Origin: Blautia sp. MSJ-9
GTDB lineage: Bacteria > Bacillota > Clostridia > Lachnospirales > Lachnospiraceae
NCBI RefSeq assembly: GCF_018919065.1
Contig: NZ_JAHLQG010000018.1
Span: forward strand, 99,637-163,636
Direction of reading: 5' to 3'
DNA: 64,000 nucleotides
This document shows positions 37,087 through 55,889 of the stretch, in pieces. Below the pieces are notes generated by a model. It was not told the DNA's origin. It saw only the letters and a list, made by a program, of their open reading frames with translations, and searched no databases. The stretch's first letter is position 1. Each line of letters begins with the position of its first letter. A program made the position numbers and the translations under genes.

Positions 37087-37152
37087 ATTTACGCTGGTTA
37101 TATGAAAAATGAAACTGCTATAGCTATACAAACTAACCGAGGTGATTCCAAA

Positions 37153-37812
37153 ATGAAAAACAAAATCCTGGTAATCGAAGATGACAGAGCGATTTCTGAA
37201 TTACTATGTATGAACCTGACCATAGCCGGATACGAAACAATAGCTGCCTATGACGGAATAGAAGCCCAGCGTTTATTGCTATGGAACGAAGATGCAGACC
37301 TTGCAGTCGTCGATATTATGCTTCCCGGCAAAGACGGCTTTGCTTTGATGGAAGATTTCCGCGCAAAGAATCTCCCGGTAATTTATCTCACTGCAAAAGA
37401 TGACGTAGCATCCAAGGTAAAAGGCCTGAAACTCGGCGCAGAAGACTACATGGTAAAACCATTCGAAATGCTGGAACTTCTTGTACGAATCGAAAAAATT
37501 CTCGAAAGAACCGGTCGTGCAAAGAGAATTCTCACGATCAAAAACATTCAGGCAGACCTCCAGAGCCATCAGGTCTTGAAAGATGGAATCCCTGTAAATT
37601 TGAAACCACTGGAATATGACCTCTTTATCCTGCTCTTACAAAACAAAAATATCGCACTTGGAAGAGAAGAATTATTAAAACGCGTCTGGGGTGAAGAATA
37701 TCTGGGAGAGAGCAGAACTGTAGACGTGCACATCGGTCAGCTCCGCAAGAAACTGGAACTATATAATGAAATAAAAACAATTCCAAAACTGGGCTATCGA
37801 CTGGAGGATTAA
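37153..37812 (+). CDS. OmpR-family response regulator
   Basis: The 220-residue regulator starts at the ATG at 37153, which follows CCGAGGTGATT. The receiver domain has VIEDDRAISELL, the phospho-acceptor Asp in LAVVDIMLPGKDG and the Lys in YMVKPFEML. The winged helix has EELLKRVWGEEYLGESRTVDVHIGQLRKKL and ends TIPKLGYRLED. The histidine kinase gene follows after five bases. A DUF6034 lipoprotein lies downstream and is a likely target or sensor partner. Confidence 0.92.
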   Translation: MKNKILVIEDDRAISELLCMNLTIAGYETIAAYDGIEAQRLLLWNEDADLAVVDIMLPGKDGFALMEDFRAKNLPVIYLTAKDDVASKVKGLKLGAEDYMVKPFEMLELLVRIEKILERTGRAKRILTIKNIQADLQSHQVLKDGIPVNLKPLEYDLFILLLQNKNIALGREELLKRVWGEEYLGESRTVDVHIGQLRKKLELYNEIKTIPKLGYRLED

Positions 37813-37817
37813 CTGCT

Positions 37818-39089
37818 ATGAAGTTGTGGAAACGGACAGTAGCACTTATGCTGATAACACTTTTGTGCTCTCTGATACCGGTCGGCGTCCTGAGCCTGTA
37901 TGTCACAGGAAAAAGAAGCCTGAATAATGCTGCTGAAACCTATGGACGACAGCTTACAAATGGAAAAAATCTCCTGGAACAATTCTGGGACAGCAGCAAA
38001 TATGAGCAGATGTCTGAAACAGGAAAAAAATCTTATCTGGAATTCCAGTTTCTGAGATGCTGCGGTGAGGAAATGATACTCATTAATTCCGAAAGCAAGG
38101 AAGCCGTAGTAAACCGCACAAATTATAATATTGTCAGCATAGATAACCTTGATCTAAGCGACAAAACTGATTCCTATGAATACAAAATCCAGAAACTGAA
38201 TCACAAATACTTACTTTTACAGCAGGGGTTGCTTACAAACCCAGAGGGTTACGAAATACTTTCGGTTCGTGATGTTACCTCTATGTTTACGGAACTGAGA
38301 CAGACGGCGGTCTGGTTTCTGGGAATCTATCTGGCAGTATTTTGCATTGCAGGCTTGTTTATTTATCTGATGATGAGACGAACCGTACAGCAAATGGAAA
38401 GATTGCAGGAAGTAGCCGGAAAACAGGAAATGCTCATGGGAGCACTTGCCCATGAGATGAAAACACCACTTACTTCTATTATCGGATATTCAGACACCCT
38501 GCGTCATGTAAAACTAAACGATGAACAAAAAGACCGCGCCCTGGAACATATAAGCCGCGAGGGAAAAAGACTTGAAAAACTTTCCGGAAAAATGCTCCAG
38601 ATGCTGGGACTCCATCAGAATGATTCAATAAAAATGGAGTCACACACGATAGGAGAACTGCTGGAACGAGTGACTGAACTGGAAGCAGAACAGGCAACGC
38701 AGAGACAAATACAATTACAGACAGAATACGAAGATTTTTTCCTGAAAATGGATGATGAATTAATGGAAAGTCTTCTTGTAAATCTGATAGATAACGCTTT
38801 CCGTGCTACAGAAGCAGGAGGTCATATTACCATAAAAGCATATAAAGAATCCCGTAGAAAAATTCTGGAAGTCACAGATAACGGTCGGGGAATCCCACAG
38901 GAAGAACTGGGAAAAATCACGGAAGCTTTTTACATGGTAGACAAATCCAGAAGCCGTCAGGAGGGCGGAGCAGGACTTGGACTTGCCTTATGTGTCAAGA
39001 TTGCAGAAGTCCATGGAGGCAGACTGGATATCACAAGTCAGATAGGAACGGGAACGAAAGTAAGAGTAATATTTGACAAAAAAAGATAA
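37818..39089 (+). CDS. Sensor histidine kinase
   Basis: This membrane kinase of 423 residues has helices near residues 9-29 and 165-187, flanking a ~135-residue extracytoplasmic sensor region. HisKA has the phospho-His in GALAHEMKTPLTSIIGYSDTL, followed by N-box LVNLIDNAFRATEAGG, G1 VTDNGRGIPQEEL and G2 GGAGLGLALCVKIAEVHGG. It pairs with the regulator immediately upstream. The sensed signal is unknown. Confidence 0.92.
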   Translation: MKLWKRTVALMLITLLCSLIPVGVLSLYVTGKRSLNNAAETYGRQLTNGKNLLEQFWDSSKYEQMSETGKKSYLEFQFLRCCGEEMILINSESKEAVVNRTNYNIVSIDNLDLSDKTDSYEYKIQKLNHKYLLLQQGLLTNPEGYEILSVRDVTSMFTELRQTAVWFLGIYLAVFCIAGLFIYLMMRRTVQQMERLQEVAGKQEMLMGALAHEMKTPLTSIIGYSDTLRHVKLNDEQKDRALEHISREGKRLEKLSGKMLQMLGLHQNDSIKMESHTIGELLERVTELEAEQATQRQIQLQTEYEDFFLKMDDELMESLLVNLIDNAFRATEAGGHITIKAYKESRRKILEVTDNGRGIPQEELGKITEAFYMVDKSRSRQEGGAGLGLALCVKIAEVHGGRLDITSQIGTGTKVRVIFDKKR

Positions 39090-39418: not shown

Positions 39419-40795
39419 ATGAAGAAAATAAAAATATTTGTGGGAGCTCTTTTATGTATGAATCTTTTTACAATATCAGGATGTGACAAAGTCGTTCATT
39501 CTGCTGTTGTAGAAGAAAAGGATAAGACTGCTGCAAAGACAGAGGAAAATAAAGAGAAAGAAACAGTTCAGAAAACAGTCACTGAACAGGTGCAGGCTCC
39601 GGAAACTTACCAGACAACCATCCAGTCCGATTTAAGATCCGCAGAACGAACAGATCAGGAAAATCCTATGAAATTTACCCTGACAGCCGATGCTCCGATA
39701 GAAGTGCCGGATGTGGATGCCATATGCTTGAAAAATGTAAAAAAAGCGACAATTTCTGAAGAAGAACCGCAGAAAGTACTGGATACCTTTGCTCAGGGGC
39801 AATTGCGGAAACAAAATAATGATGGCTTGGTAGAAACATATGAGGTGAATGGACTGACGTACCAATATACCGGTACATTCCAAAATTTAGAAGAACTTAG
39901 TCTTTGGGAAAAATATTCTGCCTTTGATGATGTGAAAGAAGAAAACCTGTCTCAGGACGAGAAAGAACAAAGAGCAGAACGCTTCCAGAATTATATAAAA
40001 GCAGGAAACCAGAATGTGACTGAAGAAGATGCAGAAAATTATGTAAAGAATATTGTTTCCGGAGAATGGCGCCTGTTTGACAGTGCATCAAAAGAACTCA
40101 CAGAAGAAAACAGCACTTTGGAAAAGGACACTTTTTTCTTTGAAAGAATGGTCAATGGCGTACCTGTTAATTATATACGGAATTCTTATTTGCCATATGA
40201 TGAATTATCCCGTCCCTGGATAGATGAAGACGATAATTTTCATGAAGCGCAGTGCGATGGGTGGGATAATGAATCGCTGACAATGATTTTCTGCAGCGGA
40301 ACACTTCAGAGTTTCCAACACAGTGATCCAATTGAGGTATCAGATGCTTCGGACGAAGCATTGTTTCTTTTGCCATTTGATGAAATCAAAGATATTTTTG
40401 AAAAAACAATCACCCTGCAGATTATGACAGAGCAGGAAAACCGTCTGCTGGCAGTAGATGGCACAAGTTTCTTCGCACGTTATCCCTCTATTGATGCACT
40501 GACAGTTGAAATGACGATAACAAAAGTTCAGCTTGGATATATGCGTGTGCGGGAGGGCAACAGCAACACAGAGGGAAGCTTGATCCCGGTATGGGATTTC
40601 TATGGAACCTGGAATTCCCAGGAACCGGTGGCTTACACAGATAGCGGTGATGAAATGGTTATAGACAGCGTTACTATGGATCGCATAGGGGTACCTCTTC
40701 TCACAATCGATGCACAAGACGGCAGTATCGTACAAAGAGTACAGAATGGACCATCATCAGGTACATTCCCTGGTGGTGTTGGAGAGTGCGAATAG
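39419..40795 (+). CDS. DUF6034 family lipoprotein
   Basis: This 458-residue lipoprotein has an N-terminal hydrophobic stretch followed by a lipobox (FTISGC, Cys near 22) and a charged low-complexity linker (EEKDKTAAKTEENKEKETVQ). The folded part resembles DUF6034 (APIEVPDVDAICLKNVKKATIS... ERMVNGVPVNYI). DUF6034 proteins often sit behind a regulator-kinase pair in Lachnospiraceae, as here. GAAAGGATGAGAAAGAA precedes the ATG. It may be a sensor accessory or a target of the kinase system. Function is unknown. Confidence 0.8.
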   Translation: MKKIKIFVGALLCMNLFTISGCDKVVHSAVVEEKDKTAAKTEENKEKETVQKTVTEQVQAPETYQTTIQSDLRSAERTDQENPMKFTLTADAPIEVPDVDAICLKNVKKATISEEEPQKVLDTFAQGQLRKQNNDGLVETYEVNGLTYQYTGTFQNLEELSLWEKYSAFDDVKEENLSQDEKEQRAERFQNYIKAGNQNVTEEDAENYVKNIVSGEWRLFDSASKELTEENSTLEKDTFFFERMVNGVPVNYIRNSYLPYDELSRPWIDEDDNFHEAQCDGWDNESLTMIFCSGTLQSFQHSDPIEVSDASDEALFLLPFDEIKDIFEKTITLQIMTEQENRLLAVDGTSFFARYPSIDALTVEMTITKVQLGYMRVREGNSNTEGSLIPVWDFYGTWNSQEPVAYTDSGDEMVIDSVTMDRIGVPLLTIDAQDGSIVQRVQNGPSSGTFPGGVGECE

Positions 40796-40905: not shown

Positions 40906-41006
40906 TTCCATAGAATAATCAGAATATGAAATATTTTCTGGCTTTGCTATAATTTTGTTTATATTTTCAAAAATCCTGTTCATGTACAAACAAAACAGGT
41001 CAAAAG

Positions 41007-41262: not shown

Positions 41263-42093
41263 ATGTTTCCGGTATATGAAGAAAAAAAGGAAAATCTGCA
41301 TTTGAGGTTAATGGCATCCGGACATGCTTCCCCTCATCTGCACAATTCAATTGAGTTTATTTATGTGACAGAAGGTACGCTGGAACTGGGAATGGGACAG
41401 GAATTATTTCATATGGAGACAGGGGATTTTGCAGTTATATTTCCGGATGTGATTCATCATTACCAGGTCTTTTCAGATGGAGTGAATAAGGCATGTTATC
41501 TTTGGGCACAGCCATCTCTTGGAGAACAGTTTGCTGCTACAATGCAGAATTTTTGTCCGGTGAATCCGGTGATAAAGAAGAAAGAAGTATCACCTGACAT
41601 TGTAAATGCGATCCACTGTCTGAGGGAAAACAAGAAACAGAAAAAGAGAGATGCAGTCGTTGAGCAGGCGTATGTACAGATTTTACTGGCCAGAAGTATT
41701 CCCTGTTTTAGTTTAACAGAGAAAGAGAATGTAGAGAGCAATGACATCATTTATCAGACGGTATCTTACATTGCAAAGTATTATAAGGAAGAGATTTCAC
41801 TGGAAACGATGGCCAGAGATTTGGGAATTAGCAAGTACGCACTGTCCAGAGTATTTTCGGGAACTTTTCACCGTAATTTCAAGCAGTATTTGAATGAGCA
41901 GAGATTAAACTATGTCTGTGTGCATCTGGAATGTACGGATAAAAGCATTACAGATATTTGTCTGGATGCAGGATTTGAAAGCCAGAGAACCTTTAACAGG
42001 GTTTTCCGTGAAAGATATAAAGTAACTCCGAGAGAGTACAGGAATCTTTACAGGGAACAATATAGAGTTCAGCCTCAGGATAGTAATATGTGA
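41263..42093 (+). CDS. AraC-family regulator, probably of the adjacent sugar symporter
   Basis: This 276-residue protein has an N-terminal cupin-like sensing domain (SGHASPHLHNSIEFIYVTEGTL, then METGDFAVIFPDVIHHY) and a C-terminal AraC DNA-binding domain. The latter has two HTH motifs: EISLETMARDLGISKYALSRVFS and SITDICLDAGFESQRTFNRVFRERYKVTPREYR. A GCAGGAG site precedes the ATG. It lies 275 bp upstream of a GPH symporter whose promoter carries a likely activator site, so it is a prime candidate for the regulator binding there. Confidence 0.9.
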   Translation: MFPVYEEKKENLHLRLMASGHASPHLHNSIEFIYVTEGTLELGMGQELFHMETGDFAVIFPDVIHHYQVFSDGVNKACYLWAQPSLGEQFAATMQNFCPVNPVIKKKEVSPDIVNAIHCLRENKKQKKRDAVVEQAYVQILLARSIPCFSLTEKENVESNDIIYQTVSYIAKYYKEEISLETMARDLGISKYALSRVFSGTFHRNFKQYLNEQRLNYVCVHLECTDKSITDICLDAGFESQRTFNRVFRERYKVTPREYRNLYREQYRVQPQDSNM

Positions 42094-42199
42094 AATATAA
42101 AGGTAAATCACAGGGGATAAAATATCCGATTACCCCATGTTAGAGAAATATATGCAATGTGCACAATATTCACAGTATAAAATTGTTTATATTTATTAT

Positions 42200-42300
42200 T
42201 GCGCAGATTTTGCGTAAAGAGAAAGTTAAAAACTCTTTAATTTTGTGCATATTTTGTCTCATTCGGTTTATATAGTTTCGATTTCTTTTACTTTATAATA
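42200..42300 (+). promoter_or_regulatory. Symporter promoter with the conserved upstream module
   Basis: TTTTGTGCATATTTTGTC (42242-42259), GTTTATAT (42267-42274) and TATAAT (42295-42300) are present with no good -35; the GTTTATAT box covers the -35 position. The same three elements occur with identical spacing at 52614-52672 ahead of the GH2 beta-galactosidase gene. A diverged copy of the first element, TTGCGCAGATTTTGCG, lies at 42200-42215. The arrangement fits activation by an AraC-family protein contacting RNA polymerase at the -35 region. Confidence 0.75.
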
Positions 42301-42367
42301 ATCACCGAACAAAGGCGAAAACCGCCTGAACGGAGAAATCGGTATAAACTATGAGAGGAAGTAGAAA

Positions 42368-43735
42368 ATGGAAGAAAAAAAGTACTTAAAATGGTATAAT
42401 AAAGTCGGATATGGATCGGGTGATGTGGCAGGTAATGTTGTCTATGCGTTCTTATCCTCCTTTGTAATGCTGTATCTGACCAATACGGTTGGACTGAATG
42501 CAGGTATCGTCGGAACTCTGATTGCATTATCAAAGTTATTTGACGGTGTAACAGATATCTTCTTTGGCTCTATGATTGACAAGACCCATACCAGAATGGG
42601 TAAAGCAAAACCATGGATGCTTTACGGCTATATCGGATGTGCCGCAACCCTGATCGGTATCTTTGCAATTCCTGAAAGTCTTGGAAAAACAGCACAGTAT
42701 GCATGGTTCTTTATTGCATATTCCTTACTGAACGCAGTTTTCTATACAGCAAACAACATTGCATATTCAGCGCTGACAGCACTGATCACAAAGAACAGCA
42801 AAGAACGTGTGGAAATGGGATCCTACCGTTTTATCTTTGCATTCTCAACCAGTCTTCTGATCCAGTCTGTTACAATTAAATTTGTAGAGATCATGGGCGG
42901 CGGAGCAGCAGGATGGAGAACGGTAGCCATCATTTACGCGATCATCGGTCTGGTCGTTAATACAATTTCTGCATTATCTGTTAAAGAACTTCCGGAAGGA
43001 GAATTAAATGATGGTGTGGATAATTCTTCAGATGAGAAATACTCTCTTGTTGAAGCAGCAAAACTGTTATTTGCAAATAAATATTACATTATGATCTGTG
43101 TTACTTATATTCTTCAGCAGATTTATTCAGCTATGTTGAATATGGGTATTTACTATATGATGTATGTTCTGTTAAATGAAAACCTATTCCCTGTATTTTC
43201 ATGGGCAATCAATATTCCCCTGATCATTGCTCTTCTGATCACACCATCACTGGTGGCAAAATGGCAGGGATTGTACAAGTTAAATGTTACCGGCTATGCA
43301 ATTGGAACCATCGGAAGAGGACTTGTGATCGTCGCCGCATATATGCACAGTGTTCCGCTTATGCTGGCGTTTACAGCAGTTGCAGCTTTTGGTATGGGAC
43401 CATGGCAGGGAGACATGAACGCGGTAATTGCCAACTGCTCTGAATATACATACCTTACAAAAGGCAAACGTGTAGACGGAACAATGTATTCCTGTACATC
43501 TCTTGGAATCAAACTTGGAGGCGGACTTGGAACAGCTATCACAGGATGGCTTCTGGCATTCAGTAAATTTGACCAGAATCTGGCAACACAGCCAGCTTCC
43601 TGTATCAGTATGCTTCATATTATGTATCTCTGGGTACCGTTTGTTATCTGTATTATTATTACATTTATCATGTCAAGAATGAACGTAGAGAAAGCAAACA
43701 AAGAGTTGGTATCCGGAAGAAGATTAAACGGATAA
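42368..43735 (+). CDS. GPH-family sugar:cation symporter (MelB-like)
   Basis: This is a glycoside-pentoside-hexuronide:cation symporter of the major facilitator superfamily, 455 residues with 12 expected helices. The opening LKWYNKVGYGSGDVAGNVVYAFLSSFVMLYLTNTVG and the loop DGVTDIFFGSMIDKTHTRMGKAKPWM are family hallmarks. It is probably an importer of a galactoside or related disaccharide. That substrate is inferred because its promoter module is shared with the GH2 beta-galactosidase gene. GAGAGGAAG precedes the ATG; a terminator follows, so it is monocistronic. Confidence 0.9.
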   Translation: MEEKKYLKWYNKVGYGSGDVAGNVVYAFLSSFVMLYLTNTVGLNAGIVGTLIALSKLFDGVTDIFFGSMIDKTHTRMGKAKPWMLYGYIGCAATLIGIFAIPESLGKTAQYAWFFIAYSLLNAVFYTANNIAYSALTALITKNSKERVEMGSYRFIFAFSTSLLIQSVTIKFVEIMGGGAAGWRTVAIIYAIIGLVVNTISALSVKELPEGELNDGVDNSSDEKYSLVEAAKLLFANKYYIMICVTYILQQIYSAMLNMGIYYMMYVLLNENLFPVFSWAINIPLIIALLITPSLVAKWQGLYKLNVTGYAIGTIGRGLVIVAAYMHSVPLMLAFTAVAAFGMGPWQGDMNAVIANCSEYTYLTKGKRVDGTMYSCTSLGIKLGGGLGTAITGWLLAFSKFDQNLATQPASCISMLHIMYLWVPFVICIIITFIMSRMNVEKANKELVSGRRLNG

Positions 43736-43768
43736 TAAATAAAAATTATATAAAGACTAAAAAGATGA

Positions 43769-43806
43769 TTCCCCTCTGTTTTGGTAAAAGCAGAGGGGAA
43801 TTATTA
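43769..43806 (+). terminator. Terminator after the symporter gene
   Basis: TTCCCCTCTG (43769-43778) pairs with CAGAGGGGAA (43791-43800), with an ATTATT tail. Confidence 0.85.
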
Positions 43807-43843
43807 AATAGAGATAAATGGGAATTTTGTACTATAACAATGC

Positions 43844-43885
43844 AAGAAAATATTGCTATAAGAAAATATTGCTATAAGAAAATAA
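43844..43885 (+). repeat. 16-bp tandem repeat in the AraC gene leader
   Basis: AAGAAAATATTGCTAT is repeated exactly at 43844-43859 and 43860-43875. A partial third unit follows up to the ribosome site of the AraC gene. Confidence 0.8.
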
Positions 43886-43901
43886 TATATGGGGTGAGCA
43901 A

Positions 43902-44831
43902 ATGTCAAACAGGAGAAGAGAAGCCAAATTCAAATATTGCCAGATTCCTGATGGGGAGGATTTGCTGGCAGTGCTTGGAAGTGCAGGGATTAAAACATAT
44001 GGTCTGGATGAGGTGAGAAGAACCGTTCTGCCAAATCATTTCCATAATCTGCTGGAGATTGGAATCTGCAGAAGGGGCAGAGGGACAGTAGTATTTAATA
44101 ATGACAGAAGATTTTATACAGAGAATTCAGTGATCATTATTCCTGCAAATTTTCCTCATAATATTATTAATGCAGAGGGGGAGAAAAGTTTCTGGGAATT
44201 CATTTATGTTGATACCATGGAATTTTTATTAAGTGCAAAGTTCAGAAAAAGAGATGCTAAGCGTTTTCAGAACCGGATTGAAAGCGGGCCTATCAAAAGA
44301 CAGAAGGAAGAAGTTCCGCTGCTTGTGCGTGAACTTGACTGCCTCATGGATCAGATCAGAATACAGGATTATGGATACAGAAATTGTGTAAAGGGACTTT
44401 TATTTACGGTACTTATGGAAATCGTGAAAATTAATTCGGATGAATTTGTAAATGAGAAACGTCAGGACACAATGGAATATGTAAATGATGATAAGTCCGG
44501 AAAGCTGCAGCTTGCACTGTCATTTGTGGAGGAACATTTTGCAGAAGACATCAAAATATCTGATATTGCGGAAGCAACATTTATCAGTGAAAGCTATCTC
44601 AGAAGGTTATTTTCCGAAAAATACAAAATGACTCCTGTCCAGTATGTAAATTATATTCGGATACAGGAAGCCTGTAAGCTGTTAAAAAATAAAAAATTTA
44701 ATATCAGTGAAGCGGCACAGAAAGTAGGATTCAATAATATGTCTACATTTATAACAAATTTCAGGAAAGTAAAAAATCAAACACCTGGACAGTGGATAAG
44801 GGAGGTACATAAAAGCATAGAGGAAAGGTAA
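43902..44831 (+). CDS. AraC-family regulator upstream of the galactoside ABC operon
   Basis: The 309-residue regulator has an N-terminal cupin-like domain (LPNHFHNLLEIGICRRGRGTVVFNN, then NSVIIIPANFPHNIIN) and a C-terminal AraC domain with HTHs DIKISDIAEATFISESYLRRLFS and NISEAAQKVGFNNMSTFITNFRKVKNQTPGQWI. GGGGTGA precedes the ATG. It lies 240 bp ahead of, and in the same direction as, a sugar-binding lipoprotein gene whose promoter lacks a -35 box. It therefore probably activates that operon. Confidence 0.9.
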   Translation: MSNRRREAKFKYCQIPDGEDLLAVLGSAGIKTYGLDEVRRTVLPNHFHNLLEIGICRRGRGTVVFNNDRRFYTENSVIIIPANFPHNIINAEGEKSFWEFIYVDTMEFLLSAKFRKRDAKRFQNRIESGPIKRQKEEVPLLVRELDCLMDQIRIQDYGYRNCVKGLLFTVLMEIVKINSDEFVNEKRQDTMEYVNDDKSGKLQLALSFVEEHFAEDIKISDIAEATFISESYLRRLFSEKYKMTPVQYVNYIRIQEACKLLKNKKFNISEAAQKVGFNNMSTFITNFRKVKNQTPGQWIREVHKSIEER

Positions 44832-44891
44832 CGGTTTGGGGTCTTTCTAGTTATGAAGAAAGTATAGATAAGTAGTAAAACTGAGAAAAGT

Positions 44892-45017
44892 AAAAGATAT
44901 GCGCAAAAACCGAAAATAAATTTGCACACGAGGATGAAATATTCATTTATTGTATCGAAAACGATAACTTTTTGAACAAGATATTAGGTATAATTTATAC
45001 AAGTTGAATCGGTTTAA
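44892..45017 (+). promoter_or_regulatory. Control region of the galactoside ABC/GH42 operon
   Basis: TATAAT at 44989-44994 has no matching -35, as expected for an activated promoter. TATCGAAAACGATA (44953-44966) is a perfect inverted repeat just upstream of the -35 position. TTGAATCGGTTTAA (45004-45017), near the transcript start, is a partial LacI-type operator with a central CG. On the minus strand TTTTGCGCATATCTTTT (44908-44892) matches 14 of 17 bases of the motif shared by the symporter and GH2 promoters. No gene lies in the 44832-45074 gap. Confidence 0.55.
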
Positions 45018-45074
45018 CAGAAAATATTGTACATAATAACCAAAAATAATGCGCAAAATATAGGAGGAATGAGA

Positions 45075-46436
45075 GTGAAAAAGCGAACAAAAATTATTGC
45101 TCTTCTTATGGCGACTATCGTAGGCAGCAGTCTTTTAGCTGGATGTGGAGCAGGAACGGACACAAAATCATCAAAATCAGACAGTTCTTCTGATACAGAG
45201 AAAGCAGACAGCGCAGATAAGACATCTTCAGACGGTGATGATCAGACTCTGACAGTGTGGGCATGGGACCAGTCATTTAATATTTATGCCATGAAAGAGG
45301 CAGAGAAGATCTATCAGAAAGATCATCCGGATTTCAAGTTGAATATTGTAGAAACTCCATGGGATGACATGCAGACACAGCTGGGAACAATCGTTGGCTC
45401 AGGAAATTACTCTCAGCTTCCTGATATCTGTCTGATGCAGGATTTCGCATTCCAGAAATATGTAACAACTTACCCGGATCTGTATCAGGACATTACAGAT
45501 TCAGGAATTGATTTTTCAAAGTTTGCAGAGAGCAAGCTGGCAGCTTCTACAATTGATGGAAAGAATTATGGTGTTCCGTTTGATAACGGTGCTGAAGTTG
45601 CATGTTACAGAACAGACATTCTCGATCAGGCAGGCTATACACTGGATGATCTGACAGATATTGACTGGAATAAATTTATTGAAATCGGAACAGATGTTTA
45701 TGAAAAAACAGGATATTCTTTACTTTCTGTTCAGGCAGGAAGTTCAGACCTGATCTATCAGATGATGCAGTCAGCAGGATTCGGAACATGGAAAGATGAC
45801 GGCACTCCTGATATTGCCGGAAATGAACATATTAAGCAGTGCATTGAGATTTACCAGGAAATGGTCGAAGCGCATGTCCTTGCAGTTGTAAACAGCTGGG
45901 ATGAATATGTAGCAACCTTTACAAGTGGAAAGACAGCAGGCGTTATCAATGGATGCTGGATCCTTGCATCTATCCAGACAGCAGAAGACCAGTCCGGAAA
46001 CTGGGGACTGACAGATATGCCGGCAATTCCGGATGCGGAAACTGCTACCAACTATTCCAATCAGGGTGGTTCCACATGGGCGATCACTACAAACTGCAAG
46101 AATACAGAACTTGCAGAAGATTTCCTTGCAAAAACATTTGCAGGAAGTGTAGAACTGTATGATACCATTCTTCCAAGCTCCGGAGCACTGGCTACATGGC
46201 TTCCGGCAAGTGAGAGTGAAGTTTACAGTGAGCCGCAGGAATTCTTCGGCGGACAGGCAATTTACAAACAGATTTCCGACTTTGCTTCCAAGACACCAAC
46301 TGTAGATCTGGGCGTATATTACACTGAGGCAAATCAGGCACTTGCTACAGCAGTGGCAAATGTATCCGGCGGATCAGACATTGATTCTGAACTGAAAACA
46401 GCACAGGATACAGTAGAATTTAATATGGGACAGTAA
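45075..46436 (+). CDS. Sugar-binding lipoprotein of a CUT1 ABC importer
   Basis: The mature protein starts at a lipobox (SSLLAGC, Cys near 24) followed by a Ser/Asp/Lys linker. Typical family segments are LTVWAWDQSFNIYAMKEAEKIYQKDHPDFKLNIVETPWDDM and GKTAGVINGCWILASIQ. I start it at the GTG at 45075, seven bases after a perfect AGGAGG; the ATG at 45069 is too close to that site. Length is 454 residues. It heads an operon with two permeases, a LacI regulator and a GH42 beta-galactosidase, so a galactoside is the likely ligand. Confidence 0.9.
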   Translation: MKKRTKIIALLMATIVGSSLLAGCGAGTDTKSSKSDSSSDTEKADSADKTSSDGDDQTLTVWAWDQSFNIYAMKEAEKIYQKDHPDFKLNIVETPWDDMQTQLGTIVGSGNYSQLPDICLMQDFAFQKYVTTYPDLYQDITDSGIDFSKFAESKLAASTIDGKNYGVPFDNGAEVACYRTDILDQAGYTLDDLTDIDWNKFIEIGTDVYEKTGYSLLSVQAGSSDLIYQMMQSAGFGTWKDDGTPDIAGNEHIKQCIEIYQEMVEAHVLAVVNSWDEYVATFTSGKTAGVINGCWILASIQTAEDQSGNWGLTDMPAIPDAETATNYSNQGGSTWAITTNCKNTELAEDFLAKTFAGSVELYDTILPSSGALATWLPASESEVYSEPQEFFGGQAIYKQISDFASKTPTVDLGVYYTEANQALATAVANVSGGSDIDSELKTAQDTVEFNMGQ

Positions 46437-46445
46437 TTCAGACAG

Positions 46446-46484
46446 AGAGATGCTCCTGTATAAAAAGTGCATGAGCATCTCTTT
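46446..46484 (+). other. Intra-operon hairpin between binding protein and permease genes
   Basis: AGAGATGCTC (46446-46455) pairs with GAGCATCTCT (46473-46482) and is followed only by TTCC. Such hairpins commonly protect or attenuate the mRNA so that the binding protein is made in excess over the permeases. Confidence 0.65.
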
Positions 46485-46562
46485 CCATATCATCTTTTCC
46501 ATAACAATTTCTATGATCATATGAGTGTGAAAGAATATCGTAATGAAAGCTGGTGTAAATCT

Positions 46563-47453
46563 ATGAATAAAAAGAAAGGTCTCAGTATGAGACAGAAACA
46601 GAATGCAACCGGATGGTTATTCCTGGTTCCTGCGATCATACTGATCTGCGGATTCAGTATCTATCCGATGATCAGTGCCCTGATCACTTCTTTCAAAACA
46701 GGAACCGGTACAAACATGACATTTACCGGACTTACAAACTACATAAGATGTTTCAAAGATGATGTATTTATTCAGTCTCTGAAGAACTGCTTTTTCTATC
46801 TGATCATTCAGGTTCCGGTCATGCTGATCCTGGCATTGGCTCTGGCATCTATCCTGAACAATCCGAAGATTAAAGCAAGAGGATTCTTCAGAACAGCAAT
46901 TTTCCTCCCATGTGCAACTTCCCTGGTTGCCTATGCGATTATTTTCCGTTCTTTATTTGCAACAGACGGATTTATCAACACCATCGCTGTAAAACTTGGA
47001 ATTCTTGACAGCGCATACAATTTCCTGGCAAACCCATTAAGTGCAAAGATTGTTATCATTATTGCACTGGTATGGAGATGGACAGGATACAACATGGTAT
47101 TCTATCTGGCAGGACTTCAGAACATTGAATATTCTGTTTATGAAGCAGCCAAGATTGACGGCGCTTCTGCAATCCAGACTTTCTTTAAGATTACAGTACC
47201 TTTACTGAAACCTACGATCCTGATGACTGCCATCATGTCCACAAATGGTACACTGCAGTTATTCGATGAATCTATGAACCTGACACACGGCGGTCCTGGA
47301 AATGCTTCCATTACCATGTCTCATTATATTTATAATATGTCATTCAAGGGTGTACCTAACTTCGGATACACTTCAGCAATGTCATTTATTATCCTGATCA
47401 TGGTGGCAATCCTGGCACTTGTACAGATGAAAGTAGGTGATGATCGTGAATAA
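46563..47453 (+). CDS. Carbohydrate ABC transporter permease (MalF/UgpA-like)
   Basis: This is a membrane subunit of the CUT1 importer. The frame is open from 46467, but the first 32 codons look non-coding; I prefer the ATG at 46563, and the ATG at 46587 is also possible. Six helices begin with TGWLFLVPAIILICGFSIYPMISALITSF. The docking loop is YEAAKIDGASAIQTFFKITVPLLKP, and LTHGGPGNASITMSHYIYNMSFK is typical of UgpA types. No ATPase gene is present; the MsmK/UgpC protein at 14736 is the probable partner. Confidence 0.88.
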   Translation: MNKKKGLSMRQKQNATGWLFLVPAIILICGFSIYPMISALITSFKTGTGTNMTFTGLTNYIRCFKDDVFIQSLKNCFFYLIIQVPVMLILALALASILNNPKIKARGFFRTAIFLPCATSLVAYAIIFRSLFATDGFINTIAVKLGILDSAYNFLANPLSAKIVIIIALVWRWTGYNMVFYLAGLQNIEYSVYEAAKIDGASAIQTFFKITVPLLKPTILMTAIMSTNGTLQLFDESMNLTHGGPGNASITMSHYIYNMSFKGVPNFGYTSAMSFIILIMVAILALVQMKVGDDRE

Positions 47454-48255
47454 TAAAGTAAAAATGACTCTTATGTATATTTTTCTTGGAATCTGTACTG
47501 TAATTTCCGTGTTCCCGTTATTATGGATGATCATTGCAGCAACGAACAAGAGCGTGGATGTTATTGCAGGTAAGCTTACTTTCGGTTCTTACCTGATGGA
47601 GAACTACAGAAACCTGATCAGTCAGCAGCCATTGTGGGGAAACTTCCTCAATTCCTGTAAATATACAATCCTTGTAACTGTTTTCTCCCTGATCGTAAGT
47701 TCTCTGGCAGGTTATGCCTTTGAGATTTATCGTGACAAGGCAAAAGAGAAAATGTATGCCATTGTACTGATGTCCATGATGATTCCGTTTGTTGCACTGA
47801 TGGTACCGTTATTCAGAATGTACTCCCGTCTGGGACTCTTAAATACAGCAGTAGGCTTTATGCTTCCGTCTCTGGCAACACCGCTTCTGATCATGATGTT
47901 CAGAACTAATGCCAAAGCATTTCCGGTAGACATTATCGAAGCTGCACGTATTGATGGTCTTAGCGAATTTGGAATTTTCTTCCGTATGTATATTCCATCC
48001 ATGAAATCCATTTTTGCAGCAGCAGGTGTAGTTACATTTATGAATGCGTGGAATAACTATTTGTGGGCAAAAGTAATCATGTCTGATAATACAACTCAGA
48101 CAATGCCTATGCTGATCTCCAACCTGACATCCGGATATGTGACTGACTACGGTATGGTTATGCTGTCAGTTCTTATCACGACAATTCCGACTGCAATTGT
48201 ATTCTTCTTACTGCAGAAGAACTTCGTAGAAGGTATTACCGGATCAGTAAAATAA
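47440..48255 (+). CDS. Carbohydrate ABC transporter permease (MalG/UgpE-like)
   Basis: This is the second permease, about 271 residues with six helices. The docking loop is EAARIDGLSEFGIFFRMYIPSMKS, and the C-terminus is FFLLQKNFVEGITGSVK, the usual ending of MalG-type subunits. It overlaps the end of the first permease gene; ATG at 47440 and GTG at 47446 are both plausible, with AGGTGA just upstream, so translation is coupled. It completes the importer. Confidence 0.9.
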   Translation: MIVNNKVKMTLMYIFLGICTVISVFPLLWMIIAATNKSVDVIAGKLTFGSYLMENYRNLISQQPLWGNFLNSCKYTILVTVFSLIVSSLAGYAFEIYRDKAKEKMYAIVLMSMMIPFVALMVPLFRMYSRLGLLNTAVGFMLPSLATPLLIMMFRTNAKAFPVDIIEAARIDGLSEFGIFFRMYIPSMKSIFAAAGVVTFMNAWNNYLWAKVIMSDNTTQTMPMLISNLTSGYVTDYGMVMLSVLITTIPTAIVFFLLQKNFVEGITGSVK

Positions 48256-48278
48256 GACAGACGAAAGGATGCACATAC

Positions 48279-49274
48279 ATGGATAATAAAGTAAATATCA
48301 GCCAGGTGGCCAAGGATGTAGGTGTATCAGTTTCGACAGTTTCGAGAGCTTTGTCCGGCAAAGGGCGGATCTCAGAATCTACAAGAGAGAAAATCAACAG
48401 CTATCTTTCAGAAAAACAGCTCATCCCTAACACAAGGGAAAAACGCTATACAGACATTGTTACGAAGATGATATCTGTGGTGTTGCCCGGAGAAGAAAAC
48501 TTTGCCTCTATGCCATATTTTTTAAACATTTTGCTGAGTGTATATGATTATTTTTCCATCCGTGGCTACCAGGTAAATCTGATCAAGGTGACACCAACAG
48601 ATATTTCCAATCTGACACATGCAGTGGAAGAACATGTCATGGATGGCGTGATCCTTACACGTATGGTGGAGAACAATGACGAGATTGTCTATCTGAAAAA
48701 AGCAGGCGTTCCATTTGTAGTGATCGGGCCTTATGATGATCCATCTGTACTTCAGGTGGATACAGATAATGAAGCTGCATGCTGTGATATTACGAATGTA
48801 CTGCTTCAGAAAGGCCTGGACAAAATGGCAGTTATGTGTGCGAGACAGGAACATTACATTAACAGAAAGCGATTCCAGGGAATATTGAAAGCCTATATGG
48901 AAAGCTATATGCTTCTTGACCGTAGATACGTTTTTTATGATACAGAATTCGAGAATATAGCAGAAATGGCGATAGAGAAAGTACTGGCATCTGATGTGAA
49001 CTGTATCCTGTGTATGGACGACAACATCTGTTTGGTGATCTTAAGAATTCTACGCAAAAAGGGAATTCCGGTTCCTGAGAGAATAAAAGTGGCGTCTCTT
49101 CATAACAGCAATCTGCTGGATGAATGGTATCCACCTGTCAGCTGTGTTCATTTCGATGTAGATGAGCTTGGAAAAGAGGCAAGCAGGATTCTATATGTAT
49201 ATCTTACAGAAAATAGGAAGCTGCCTAAATCCATTCTGGGATATGAACTGCAGATGAAAGCTTCTACAAATTAG
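48279..49274 (+). CDS. LacI-family transcriptional regulator of the galactoside operon
   Basis: The 331-residue LacI protein has HTH NISQVAKDVGVSVSTVSRALSGKG (residues 5-28) and a sugar-binding core ending PVSCVHFDVDELGKEASRILYVYL. The region around residue 230 (VNCILCMDDNICLVILRILRKKGIPVPERIKVASLHNS) is standard. A GAAAGGA site precedes the ATG 24 bases after the permease stop. It lies inside the operon it probably represses; a partial LacI-like operator is at 45004-45017. With the AraC protein at 43902 the operon has both an activator and a repressor candidate. Confidence 0.9.
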   Translation: MDNKVNISQVAKDVGVSVSTVSRALSGKGRISESTREKINSYLSEKQLIPNTREKRYTDIVTKMISVVLPGEENFASMPYFLNILLSVYDYFSIRGYQVNLIKVTPTDISNLTHAVEEHVMDGVILTRMVENNDEIVYLKKAGVPFVVIGPYDDPSVLQVDTDNEAACCDITNVLLQKGLDKMAVMCARQEHYINRKRFQGILKAYMESYMLLDRRYVFYDTEFENIAEMAIEKVLASDVNCILCMDDNICLVILRILRKKGIPVPERIKVASLHNSNLLDEWYPPVSCVHFDVDELGKEASRILYVYLTENRKLPKSILGYELQMKASTN

Positions 49275-49294
49275 TACACAAATATCATTTGTCA

Positions 49295-49318
49295 AAGCGG
49301 ATGAATGAATCCGCCTGA
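49295..49318 (+). repeat. Dispersed hairpin repeat, family A minimal copy
   Basis: AAGCGGATGAATGAATCCGC followed by CTGA keeps the CGGAT/ATCCG hairpin seen in the longer copies. Confidence 0.5.
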
Positions 49319-49326
49319 TATACAAA

Positions 49327-49370
49327 CGATGTCAGATCATAAAATTTGCTCTTGATCTGGCATCGTTTTT
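49327..49370 (+). terminator. Terminator-like hairpin between the LacI and GH42 genes
   Basis: CGATGTCAGATCA (49327-49339) pairs with TGATCTGGCATCG (49353-49365), followed by T5. The GH42 ribosome site AAGGAGG comes only six bases later, so this would cut or reduce transcription into the GH42 gene unless it is overridden. Confidence 0.75.
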
Positions 49371-49386
49371 ACATAAGGAGGTTTTT

Positions 49387-51414
49387 ATGGACTTTAGAAC
49401 AGATAAGCTGCTCCATGGCGGCGATTATAATCCGGACCAGTGGTTAAAAAGACCTGATATTCTTGAGAAAGATATAGAAATGCTTGCAGAATCAGGATGC
49501 AACGTGGTAAGTCTTGGAATTTTTTCATGGGCAACACTGGAACCGGAAGAGGGAGTTTTTAACTTTGGATGGTTACAGGAGATTATTGATAAGCTTTATA
49601 AAAGAGGAATTTATACAATTCTCGCAACTCCGTCAGGTGCGAGACCGAAATGGATGGCAGATAAATATCCGGAGGTTCTTCGTGTAGATGAAACACGACA
49701 CAGAAATCTCTTCGGTTTCAGACATAATCATTGTTATACATCTCCTGTATACAGAGAAAAAGTACATATCATAAACAAAAAGCTGGCGGAAGAAGTGGCC
49801 ACACATCCAGGAGTAATTTTGTGGCACATTTCCAATGAATACGGTGGAGAGTGTCATTGTCCGCTCTGCCAGGATGCATTTCGTAAATGGCTGAAAGAGA
49901 AATACCAGACAATCGAAAATCTGAATGATCAGTGGTGCACTACATTCTGGAGTCATAACTATAACAGCTTTGATCAGATCGAGAGTCCGTCCAGAATCGG
50001 AGAAACTCAGCTTCATGCGTTAAACCTGGACTGGAAGCGATTTGTTACCCATCAGACTGCGGATTTCCTCCATCATGAAATTCAGGCAGTGAGGGATGGC
50101 GGAAGCAATCTTCCTACAACAGCAAATCTCATGTATCATTATAAGGGACTGGACTATTTTAAGATTGCAAAAGAAATTGATATCGTTTCCTGGGATACTT
50201 ACCCGACATGGCATAAAGAAGATGCGATTGACACAGCTGATGATAACGGACTGTATCATGATCTGATGCGATCTCTGAAAGGGAAACCATTTATTCAGAT
50301 AGAATCCTGCCCGGCGGCTACTAACTGGCAGGGTGTAAGTAAACTGAAGAAGCCGGGTGTCCTTTTTGCACAGTCTATGGAAGCAATCGCACATGGAAGT
50401 GAGGGGGCACTTTATTTCCAGATCCGTCAGAGCAGGGGAGCTTCTGAGAAGTTCCACGGAGCAGTGATCGATCATTATGGTGGAAAAGATACAAGAGTAT
50501 TTAAAGAGGTTTCTGAAACCGGAGAGGCTCTGAAAAAGATAAAGGAACTGGCCGGAACAGTCGTAAACAGTAAAGCAGCGATCATCTATGACTGGGGCAG
50601 CCAGTGGGCAATGGAAGATAGTCAGGGACCGAGAAACAAGGGACTTCACTATATGGAAGTGCTGAGAAAATTTTACAGAGGTTTCCGCAGACAGGGACTG
50701 AATGTAGATCTGATAGATATGACCTGTGATCTGGACAAATATAAGATACTGGCACTGCCTATGGTATATATGTTTAAAAAGGGATTTGCAGAGAAAGTCC
50801 GTGCTTTTGTGGAAAATGGCGGTTATCTGATCACAAGTTACTGGTCAGGAATCGTGGATGATACAGACAGATGTTATCTGGAGGGAACTCCTCACGGACT
50901 GATGGATGTATTGGGGATCAGAAGTACAGAGCTTGATGCTCTTTACGACTGGGAAGAAAACAGACTGATTCCTGTACAGAATAATGAACTTGGACTGGAC
51001 AGAACCTATACCTGTAAATATCTGTGTGATCTTGTGGAACTTCGCGGCGCACGTTCACTGATGACTTATGGAGAGGACTTCTATAAAGGATATTCCTGCC
51101 TGACAGTCAATGAGTACGGAAAAGGAAAAGCATGGTATGTAGCTGCTGACGCTGAAAGAGATTTCTATGATGATTTCATTGGAAAAGTAGTTGCTGACAG
51201 TGGTATTTCCTGCGGAGTAAAAGGAGAAATCCCGGATACACTGGAAATCACAGTAAGAGAGAATGACGATGTGAAATACTATATCTATCAGAACTTCGGA
51301 ACAGAAGCAGTTGAACTTCCATTGCCGGAGGAAAATGTAGAATGGATTTATGGAACTGGAGAAGATAAGCTAAAAGTTTATGGGCTTGCAATCGCAAAGA
51401 TAAAAATAGTTTAA
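49387..51414 (+). CDS. Glycoside hydrolase family 42 beta-galactosidase
   Basis: This cytoplasmic retaining beta-galactosidase has 675 residues, with a TIM barrel followed by trimerisation and beta domains. The acid/base is Glu151 in HISNEYGGECHC and the nucleophile Glu305 in FIQIESCPA, in the positions typical for GH42. Cys116, Cys156, Cys158 and Cys161 match the zinc-site pattern known in this family (ECHCPLC). AAGGAGG precedes the ATG by eight bases; there is no signal peptide. It follows the ABC importer and LacI genes and probably hydrolyses imported beta-galactosides such as galacto-oligosaccharides. Confidence 0.95.
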   Translation: MDFRTDKLLHGGDYNPDQWLKRPDILEKDIEMLAESGCNVVSLGIFSWATLEPEEGVFNFGWLQEIIDKLYKRGIYTILATPSGARPKWMADKYPEVLRVDETRHRNLFGFRHNHCYTSPVYREKVHIINKKLAEEVATHPGVILWHISNEYGGECHCPLCQDAFRKWLKEKYQTIENLNDQWCTTFWSHNYNSFDQIESPSRIGETQLHALNLDWKRFVTHQTADFLHHEIQAVRDGGSNLPTTANLMYHYKGLDYFKIAKEIDIVSWDTYPTWHKEDAIDTADDNGLYHDLMRSLKGKPFIQIESCPAATNWQGVSKLKKPGVLFAQSMEAIAHGSEGALYFQIRQSRGASEKFHGAVIDHYGGKDTRVFKEVSETGEALKKIKELAGTVVNSKAAIIYDWGSQWAMEDSQGPRNKGLHYMEVLRKFYRGFRRQGLNVDLIDMTCDLDKYKILALPMVYMFKKGFAEKVRAFVENGGYLITSYWSGIVDDTDRCYLEGTPHGLMDVLGIRSTELDALYDWEENRLIPVQNNELGLDRTYTCKYLCDLVELRGARSLMTYGEDFYKGYSCLTVNEYGKGKAWYVAADAERDFYDDFIGKVVADSGISCGVKGEIPDTLEITVRENDDVKYYIYQNFGTEAVELPLPEENVEWIYGTGEDKLKVYGLAIAKIKIV

Positions 51415-51483
51415 CCCAATAAACTGCGGAGCAGTTATTTGGTTATGAGCAAGTAGCGAAGCGGATGATTTTATCCGCTTGAC
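51413..51483 (+). repeat. Dispersed hairpin repeat, family A full copy
   Basis: This 71-bp unit overlaps the GH42 stop codon. It consists of AACCCAATAAACTGCGGAGC, CAGTTATTTGGTTATGAGCA, AGTAGCGAAGCGGATGATTT and TATCCGCTTGAC. It aligns closely with 27176-27244 and shares its second stem with 26011, 39274 and 49295. Confidence 0.7.
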
Positions 51484-51516
51484 AATTTTAGCTGTCAAAA
51501 AGTGATATAAAAATAA

Positions 51517-51560
51517 GAAAAGGTGACTGTTGGATGAATTTTCCATACGGTCACCTTTTG
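51517..51560. terminator. Bidirectional terminator between GH42 and the minus-strand AraC gene
   Basis: AAAAGGTGAC (51518-51527) pairs with GTCACCTTTT (51550-51559), with additional internal pairing. Confidence 0.8.
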
Positions 51561-51613
51561 AATTAAAAAGATTATTATAAGCATCAATATAGCCAGATAA
51601 CATATATAAAATT

Positions 51614-52489
51614 CTATTTAGGTTGAATTTCTTCGTTGATCAACAGCTGCTTACGAAACTGTGAGGGAGAAACTCCAAACTGTTTTTTGAAAAAACGACT
51701 GAAATAAAGAGGATTCTCATATCCTACCAGATTTGAAATCTCCGAAACATTATAATTGGTCGTTTCCAGCAGAGATTTTGCATTGGTTGTTCGCAGAAGC
51801 TGAACATACTGAGCCGGAGTGGTATTTGTATATTGTTTGAAATTCTGGATAAACCAGCTGACACTGATATTGTGGGAAGCGGCATAATCTTCAATACTCA
51901 CTGGTTTATTATAATGAGCCCGGAAATATTCCACAGCCTGAGCCATGTCATCCATGATCATAGGATTCTTTTTTCTTGGTTTGGTAAGAAGCTGTCGGTG
52001 GATCAGAATGAAAAGCTGTCGCAGGTAGTTGACCAGTAGCTCTTCGTAATCCTCCTGTTTGAGCTGCAGTTCCTGGATCATATTCTGATATAACTGCTTA
52101 TACTCCATGGAAATACCGGAACAGATTACATGCACATCGTCTGCAATCCCATATTTTCGCAGGATATTTTTGACATTATTTCCTGTAAAATGCACCCAGT
52201 ACACTTCCGGGTGTTCCGCACCGTAATAGTAGTAGCGCTGTTCCTCTTTCGGACGGTACAGAACCATATTTCCGGCAGATACAATCTGTTCTTTACCATT
52301 AAAATAGAAATGAGCTTTTCCGGAGGCAATATATAATAGCTGATAATCCACACGTCCGCGGGGACGGTGAGTGGGAAGTTTCTTTACTGTATAGAGACGG
52401 TAGGTACCGCAGCTTCCGACAAATAGAGAATGTTTTTTATCCTTAAAATCAACACGGGACTGATGCCAGTATGCGGAGTTTGTATACAT
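51614..52489 (-). CDS. AraC-family regulator divergent from the GH2 beta-galactosidase
   Basis: The 292-residue protein starts at the ATG at 52489, which follows AGGAGG; the frame extends 34 codons further without a start site. The N-terminal cupin-type domain contains RGRVDYQLLYIASGKAHFYFNGKEQIV. The C-terminal AraC domain has HTHs VSIEDYAASHNISVSWFIQNFKQ and VSEISNLVGYENPLYFSRFFKKQFGVSPSQFRK. It diverges from the lacZ-like gene and shares a 316-bp control region with it, so it is a candidate for binding the conserved module at 52614. Confidence 0.9.
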   Translation of the reverse strand: MYTNSAYWHQSRVDFKDKKHSLFVGSCGTYRLYTVKKLPTHRPRGRVDYQLLYIASGKAHFYFNGKEQIVSAGNMVLYRPKEEQRYYYYGAEHPEVYWVHFTGNNVKNILRKYGIADDVHVICSGISMEYKQLYQNMIQELQLKQEDYEELLVNYLRQLFILIHRQLLTKPRKKNPMIMDDMAQAVEYFRAHYNKPVSIEDYAASHNISVSWFIQNFKQYTNTTPAQYVQLLRTTNAKSLLETTNYNVSEISNLVGYENPLYFSRFFKKQFGVSPSQFRKQLLINEEIQPK

Positions 52490-52613
52490 AAGAAAACCTC
52501 CTGTATAAAGTGAAAAAAGTATATTTAAAAACTTTTCTGATATAACATGGTGAATCGAAAAGTAGAGCTGGATTTCAAAAAAGTAAATCAATCTATCTTT
52601 TAAAATTATATCA

Positions 52614-52672
52614 TTTTGTGCATATTTTGTCGAATACAGTTTATATGTTTTTTAAATAAAAAACAGTATAAT
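52614..52672 (+). promoter_or_regulatory. GH2 promoter with the conserved upstream module
   Basis: TTTTGTGCATATTTTGTC (52614-52631), GTTTATAT (52639-52646) and TATAAT (52667-52672) repeat the symporter promoter with exactly the same distances: 25 bases from the first element to the second and 53 to the -10. No -35 box is present. The rest of the 52490-52805 gap has no gene; the leader to the GH2 gene is about 125 bases. Confidence 0.78.

Positions 52673-52784: not shown

Positions 52785-55889
<3,105 letters not shown>

Follow-up and report, generated by a model that had tools for sequence, protein, structure and literature searches.

A predicted operator shared by separated symporter and beta-galactosidase genes of Blautia sp. 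MSJ-9, and its likely AraC-family reader

Introduction

How an importer gene and a hydrolase gene lying 10 kb apart might be controlled together is the question raised by a galactoside locus of Blautia sp. MSJ-9, analyzed here in a stretch of 64,000 nucleotides from contig NZ_JAHLQG010000018.1 (the window). The genes for a GPH-family sugar:cation symporter (GPH) and a GH2 beta-galactosidase (GH2) are each preceded by the same two-box module, a predicted operator, and three AraC-family genes lie nearby: AraC1, AraC2, and AraC3, the last of which is divergent from GH2. Sequence comparison suggests that one regulator, AraC3, binds both copies of the module and would co-activate GPH and GH2 on a galactoside such as lactose, a reading to which a probability of about 0.75 is assigned.

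Several well-studied systems frame this question. In Escherichia coli, the araC gene is divergent from its araBAD target, with an operator region common to both promoters, and the half-sites of AraC form a 21-base direct repeat; AraC can also act as a repressor, and class II activators overlap the -35 element. The importer and beta-galactosidase genes of the lac operon are controlled together by the LacI repressor. In Clostridium perfringens, BgaR is an AraC-type protein whose gene lies beside a beta-galactosidase gene.

The repeated module

Each copy of the module consists of an 18-base left box, TTTTGTGCATATTTTGTC, a right box, GTTTATAT, and a TATAAT hexamer. These elements and the genes most directly concerned are as follows.

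41263..42093, forward strand: AraC1, an AraC-family gene lying before GPH and an improbable reader of the boxes (HTH_18 and AraC_binding domains)
42241..42258, forward strand: left box of the GPH copy, TTTTGTGCATATTTTGTC, exact (predicted operator)
42266..42273, forward strand: right box of the GPH copy, GTTTATAT, after the same 7-base gap as in relatives (predicted operator)
42294..42299, forward strand: predicted -10 element TATAAT of the GPH gene, at the favored offset of 53
42368..43735, forward strand: GPH-family sugar:cation symporter (PF13347; TIGR00792 at 256.4 bits, passing the cut-off of 231.35)
51614..52489, reverse strand: AraC3, AraC-family, likely reader of both sites, with an ATG start at 52489
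52614..52631, forward strand: left box of the GH2 copy, TTTTGTGCATATTTTGTC, exact (predicted operator)
52639..52646, forward strand: right box of the GH2 copy, GTTTATAT (predicted operator)
52667..52672, forward strand: predicted -10 element TATAAT of the GH2 gene, at offset 53
52806..55889, forward strand: GH2 beta-galactosidase (GH2 Pfam domains and Bgal_small_N), with its ATG at 52806 behind GGGAGGAAATC

The module was first pointed out in a sequence-only reading of the window, much of which holds up. In both copies, GTTTATAT begins 25 bases and TATAAT 53 bases from the start of the left box, the spacing given there, and the 18-base box is indeed exact at both promoters, although the first copy starts at 42241 rather than 42242. 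The reported lack of a -35 box is borne out by forward hexamers that are poor at the 17-base spacing in both window copies (TATAGT, 2/6, and TATGTT, 1/6). It had also been said that the rest of the two regions is not conserved, and the sequences upstream of GPH and GH2 do not align beyond about 53 bases. An intact, equally spaced module amid surroundings that do not align, together with its conservation in relatives, supports the proposal of a functional footprint.

No third match to the 18-base box was found in the window at up to 3 mismatches (0.20 expected), and at least two such inexact matches occurred in 3 of 100 shuffled windows. Across the genome assembly (3.67 Mb, 57 contigs, 84% complete), searching with the 18-base box by itself gave 18 further places at 2–3 mismatches, versus 7 for a backwards control, while the two-box module at up to 3 mismatches was found at GPH and GH2 only (backwards control, 0); a looser pattern run over the same genome gave no additional module copies. 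A weight matrix trained on the relatives' sites, with the window excluded, scored the GH2 copy at 41.0 and the GPH copy at 38.4, compared with 6.8 for the next place in the window and a maximum of 0.9 on 40 shuffles of four loci. A candidate site before AraC1 at 40953 (6 mismatches, 6.8 bits) is not claimed.

Domain searches agree with the gene identities first given for the symporter, the GH2 enzyme, and the AraC genes. The top structure-bank match of the GPH symporter is a melibiose carrier, and beta-galactosidases are the nearest solved chains to the GH2 product, which scores under the NCBIfam equivalog cut-offs (Bga2A, 815.5 versus 999 bits; PRK10340, 846.5 versus 1284). AraC3 has a C-terminal double helix-turn-helix (HTH_18, 1.4e-20; HTH_AraC, 2.7e-18) and an N-terminal cupin-type ligand domain (AraC_binding, 1.3e-11); its best NCBIfam equivalog is AraC (NF007860), at 101.8 bits over residues 41–282, far under the 208-bit cut-off. 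The likely ATG starts of AraC3 (52489) and GH2 (52806) were chosen by eye over listed TTGs, the GH2 reading frame being listed from TTG 52791.

Conservation in relatives

The sequence-only reading proposed a search of related genomes for the two boxes at fixed spacing, and in such a search the GH2 copy is found again, the site recurring between AraC3 and GH2 or GPH. A pattern scan of 64 genomes of the genus, own genome included, gave 9 matches in 8 genomes; all but the window GPH copy adjoin an AraC3 relative, mostly before GH2, which was not seen in L023 and L027. Among 299 genomes of the family, again including its own, the pattern had 41 matches in 35 genomes and the reversed pattern none. 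By manual count 32 of the 41 adjoin AraC3, the other nine being the window GPH copy, matches upstream of AraC1 relatives in G290 and G167, and six whose target is not evident (G295, G165, G222, G265, G146, and G149). As a test on orthologous promoters, these results bear on the GH2 copy, which is conserved; the genus offers nothing comparable for the GPH copy.

So that the search would not be circular, a second set of loci was chosen by protein only, the best 80 of 537 AraC3 relatives being fetched by alignment, and the divergent strand of the 400 bases in front of AraC3 was searched for the site, allowing up to 6 mismatches. It was found in 73 of the 80 loci, 70 of them at up to 4 mismatches (13, 31, 12, 9, 5, 2, and 1 loci with 0, 1, 2, 3, 4, 5, and 6 mismatches, respectively; none in 7), while the opposite orientation was seen once in 80, with 6 mismatches. 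AraC3 is present by construction in such a set; the informative results are that the site can be predicted from the region upstream of AraC3 and that it accompanies the target. Where GH2 (62 loci) or GPH (9 loci) lies within 1.5 kb of AraC3, the site is present in 71/71. Nine loci have neither gene within that distance: seven are site-less (two of them, L101 and L123, end at a contig edge) and two have the site. One of these two, L162, has a GPH gene about 7 kb off with a site of its own, the AraC3-side copy having 6 mismatches; the other, L173 (Blautia luti), has the site beside AraC3 with no GH2 seen. Over the 1.36 Mb of fetched loci, 70 sites at up to 4 mismatches were in place and 9 elsewhere, with none for the reversed pattern.

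Because the site lies divergently upstream of AraC3 in 73/80 loci, including all 71 with GH2 or GPH, AraC3 rather than AraC1 is its likely reader. The sequence-only reading had inferred an AraC-family activator and looked to the AraC gene beside each target; an AraC-type regulator is supported, but the evidence points to AraC3 alone. It is unlikely that each target is under its own neighbor, with AraC1 (41263) reading the site at GPH and AraC3 (51614) that at GH2. The AraC1 gene stops 147 bases short of the GPH site, and relatives of AraC1 lie near GPH in many genomes, as such an arrangement would have it; however, both boxes are identical at the two sites, and an AraC1 relative was seen in just 10 of the 73 site-bearing loci (searched up to 10 kb on each side, the rest of the genomes not being searched). 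Moreover, in five loci (L078, L082, L103, L105, and L106) the site precedes the AraC1 relative, which suggests that AraC1 can itself be a target, though in two of them (L103 and L105) there is no -10 at offset 53.

The proposed split regulon of importer and hydrolase is supported, with both boxes identical at GPH and GH2 here. GH2 and GPH are both on the target side in 49 of the 73 site-bearing loci. Sites detached from AraC3 precede GPH (L162), galK-galT (L102, same genome as L087), and an alpha-L-fucosidase (L099, PF01120), and further site-bearing targets are a LacI-like gene with ABC importer genes in L099 (weak similarity) and a Bmp-type binding protein in L162. This content fits lactose or another beta-galactoside as the predicted substrate; where the fucosidase is included, the substrate may be a fucosylated glycan of milk or mucin.

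Some loci and matches stand apart. In L023 and L027 (genomes G014 and G044, the latter Blautia luti), AraC3 and the site are kept with no GH2 seen; judged by eye, what comes next is a reading frame like that of a group II intron and a remnant resembling a fucosidase. In L095 (G009, B. massiliensis), the gene behind GH2 (11271, forward strand) resembles by eye the L099 alpha-L-fucosidase and stands in the place of GPH. A 3-mismatch site common to two genomes (L060 and L093) lies beside GntR-like and SIS-like genes (by eye) and is unexplained. Pattern matches in L091 (before dnaA, by eye), L058, L075 (at 7962), and L090 (at 5653) were judged chance or unexplained.

Site anatomy and the divergent AraC3 promoter

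For counts of site anatomy, sites were thinned to more than 9 differences in 90 bases, reducing AraC3-adjacent sites from 107 to 89 and detached sites from 21 to 19. L068, L080, L092, and L094 were then removed from the detached set (three joined the adjacent set and one was a near-duplicate) and L091 was dropped, leaving 92 adjacent and 14 detached sites. The consensus of the adjacent sites is TTTTGTGCATRTTTTGTC, 7 bases, RTTTATGK, 20 bases, and TATAAT. In 69/92, at least 5/6 of TATAAT is found 53 bases from where the box begins, compared with 11/92 for the runner-up offset. Within the left box, the TTTTGT-N5-TTTTGT repeat noticed in the sequence-only reading does correspond to the best-scoring offset (11, at 13.5, followed by 16 at 10.2, 25 at 9.3, 27 at 9.0, and 21 at 8.5), though the protein may read the box in another way. 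A 21-base repeat like araI1-I2, outscored by four other offsets, is not specially supported.

What had been overlooked is that the left box also serves, by prediction, a promoter on the other strand:

52628..52633, reverse strand: predicted -35 element of AraC3, TCGACA, overlapping the left box (5–6/6 of TTGACA there in 87/92 adjacent sites)
52605..52613, reverse strand: predicted extended -10 element of AraC3, TGATATAAT, its hexamer 17 bases from the -35 (from conservation in adjacent sites)

The minus strand of the GH2 copy thus reads TCGACA-N17-TATAAT, and this copy overlaps the predicted divergent promoter of AraC3. The minus-strand -35 has the consensus TRGACA, the reverse complement of TGTCYA, and a TACAAT-like -10 (at least 4/6) is present in 90/92 adjacent versus 4/14 detached sites, with the TG of a preceding TGn in 91/92 adjacent sites. 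At the GPH copy the minus-strand promoter is decayed (GAGACA and AAGAGT). The detached sites keep the target -10 (at least 5/6) in 10 of 14 and the minus-strand -35 (5/6) in 5. Since the divergent promoter overlaps the site, part of the conservation (TGTCYA and the flank ATTGTATCA) would belong to the AraC3 promoter, partly shared with the operator.

The overlap of the right box with the target -35 weighs against an activator, as it would suit a repressor too. It is improbable, however, that AraC3 represses at these sites and that sugar relieves the repression. AraC itself can repress, but class II activators likewise overlap the -35, and forward -35 hexamers matching 1/6 and 2/6 make the window promoters look activator-dependent. 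This last argument is weakened for the relatives, 40 of whose 92 adjacent sites have 4/6 or 5/6 of TTGACA 17 bases before the target -10, inside and behind the right box. Other observations also count against AraC3 as the activator at both copies. Adjacency alone is compatible with another protein reading the site, and the genomes are related, so that the counts are not independent events. Within the sampled genus the window GPH copy stands alone, and the detached sites in L060/L093, L075, and L090 have no sensible target. No target -10 is found at the expected place in 4 of the 14 detached sites (L075, L090, L103, and L105), L103 and L105 being those that precede AraC1 relatives, and the minus-strand -35 retained in 5/14 means that TGTCYA is not promoter alone.

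Locus history

Why the window has two sites is best seen against the usual arrangement, in which one site commonly stands before GH2 and then GPH. A close GPH relative is present in 22 of the 64 genus genomes, own included, and outside the window 20 of 23 genus GPH genes lie directly behind GH2 (24 match rows, one gene being in two pieces); in the sequence fetched upstream of them, no more than 1.5 kb, all 23 lack a site. Because GPH is usually placed right behind GH2 in the genus, nothing there corresponds to the GPH copy, and the extra site in the window seems to be the cost of separating GPH from GH2. The absence of a site at GPH in any other sampled genome of the genus could instead mean that the GPH copy is a chance match or a recently copied piece without function. 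This is very improbable: the boxes and -10 are intact at the right spacing though the surroundings do not align, no GH2 lies directly upstream of the window GPH, and detached targets with sites occur in other lineages as well.

Trees were built from the rows most similar to the window (36 of 107 distinct relatives for AraC3, 36 of 94 for GPH, 26 of 81 for GH2, and all 30 for AraC1). AraC3 and GH2 of the window join Fusicatenibacter SUG199 and G009 (support 99 and 100), and in neither of these is GH2 followed by GPH within the sequence fetched. The window GPH belongs to a 14-row clade (99) that also holds L100, L103, L105, and the genus operon types, internally unresolved, and AraC1 groups with L100 and L103 (88). 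Clade tests by approximately unbiased p-value (p-AU) gave 0.08 for AraC1 with the genus operon type and 0.19 for AraC1 with L100/L103/L105, and 0.47 and 0.15, respectively, for GPH, rejecting neither the split of an operon nor the merging of two loci.

A tentative case, falling somewhat short of even odds, can be made for the second history, in which two galactoside loci, each with its own AraC3, merged, with loss of the AraC3 next to GPH, and no single operon was split. The gene order AraC1, AraC3, site, GPH is found in L105 and L078, and L122 has AraC3, site, GPH, AraC2, ABC importer, like the window block; the different groupings of AraC3/GH2 and AraC1 in the trees point the same way. Against this, the clade tests decide nothing, and no AraC3 remnant was found between AraC1 and the GPH site, where it was sought.

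Neighboring genes

Between the two targets lie the following genes.

43902-44831, forward strand: AraC2, AraC-family
45027-49274, forward strand: ABC sugar importer and LacI-type gene, the latter at 48279
49387-51414, forward strand: GH42 beta-galactosidase

In a matrix scan, none of these genes (43902..51414) was preceded by the module. Upstream of the ABC importer gene (45027) are TGCGCAAAA words near 44900 and 45050, and words like these also precede the counterpart importer gene of L122; TTGCGCA/TTTTGCG words occur at 42199-42217, upstream of the GPH site. Both sets of words may belong to an operator of AraC2 (43902) or of the LacI-type gene, so that a second regulator for GPH may exist. 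An inverted repeat noted by eye upstream of the importer gene, TATCG-AAAA-CGATA (about 44952-44970), is of an operator type that a LacI-type protein could read. Farther off, a DUF6034 protein (39419-40795) stands behind a two-component system (37102-39089); L119 and L121 also have histidine-kinase-like and DUF6034-like genes, at low identity.

Discussion

The arrangement of boxes and promoters suggests how AraC3 might work. With its sugar, AraC3 would occupy the left box, upstream, and the right box, over the poor target -35, and once bound would bring RNA polymerase to the TATAAT that lies 20 bases beyond. By occupying the GH2 copy it would also cover its own -35 and spacer, limiting its own synthesis, and overlapping polymerase footprints would make GH2 activation and AraC3 transcription mutually exclusive; at the GPH copy, with the target side only, control would run one way. 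The locus is probably an AraC-type galactoside switch that limits itself. A broader proposal, for and against which the chances seem about equal, is of a 33-base two-way lactose switch across the Lachnospiraceae, in which the same bases would be the activator site for GH2 or GPH and the regulator's own -35, so that occupancy would start sugar use and throttle the regulator in one step. Detached copies (GPH here, galK-galT, and the fucosidase) would then be one-way plug-ins that let genes leave the operon with control kept.

Like E. coli AraC at araBAD/araC, AraC3 is an AraC-family protein encoded divergently from its likely target, with a predicted operator region common to the two promoters; unlike AraC, its predicted targets are galactoside genes, and the 21-base repeat lacks special support. 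Joint control of importer and beta-galactosidase is proposed here as in the lac operon, but the proposed regulator is of AraC type, its gene adjoins that of the hydrolase, and each target has a promoter of its own. C. perfringens BgaR is a lactose-responsive regulator that, with its PbgaL promoter, is used as a lactose-inducible system in clostridia (PMC10312008); AraC3 would be comparable as a predicted galactoside-responsive regulator. In a related gut Firmicute, Eubacterium rectale A1-86, the Eub-2 locus brings together GH2, GH53, GPH, and AraC genes and is predicted to act on arabinogalactan (PMC5320581); it resembles the window in having GH2, GPH, and AraC genes together, and differs in that the sections of that paper on the locus describe no operator for it.

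AraC-type sugar switches are of a known kind, while this operator and regulon are undescribed as far as the open-licence literature shows, no description having been found there of the operator, the proposed regulator, or the double use of bases. Among 120 of the 5152 relatives, few are named, and these are called just AraC-family or helix-turn-helix regulators.

Use of lactose and other galactosides by Blautia and its relatives bears on what diet and milk glycans do in the gut. Having a defined operator, together with the regulator proposed to read it, would allow regulon prediction across many genomes and the testing of inducers, and the operator may be usable for inducible promoters in commensals, which have few. 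In Blautia sp. MSJ-9 the same operator also occurs once beside the divergent regulator gene and once apart from it, which makes for a natural comparison.

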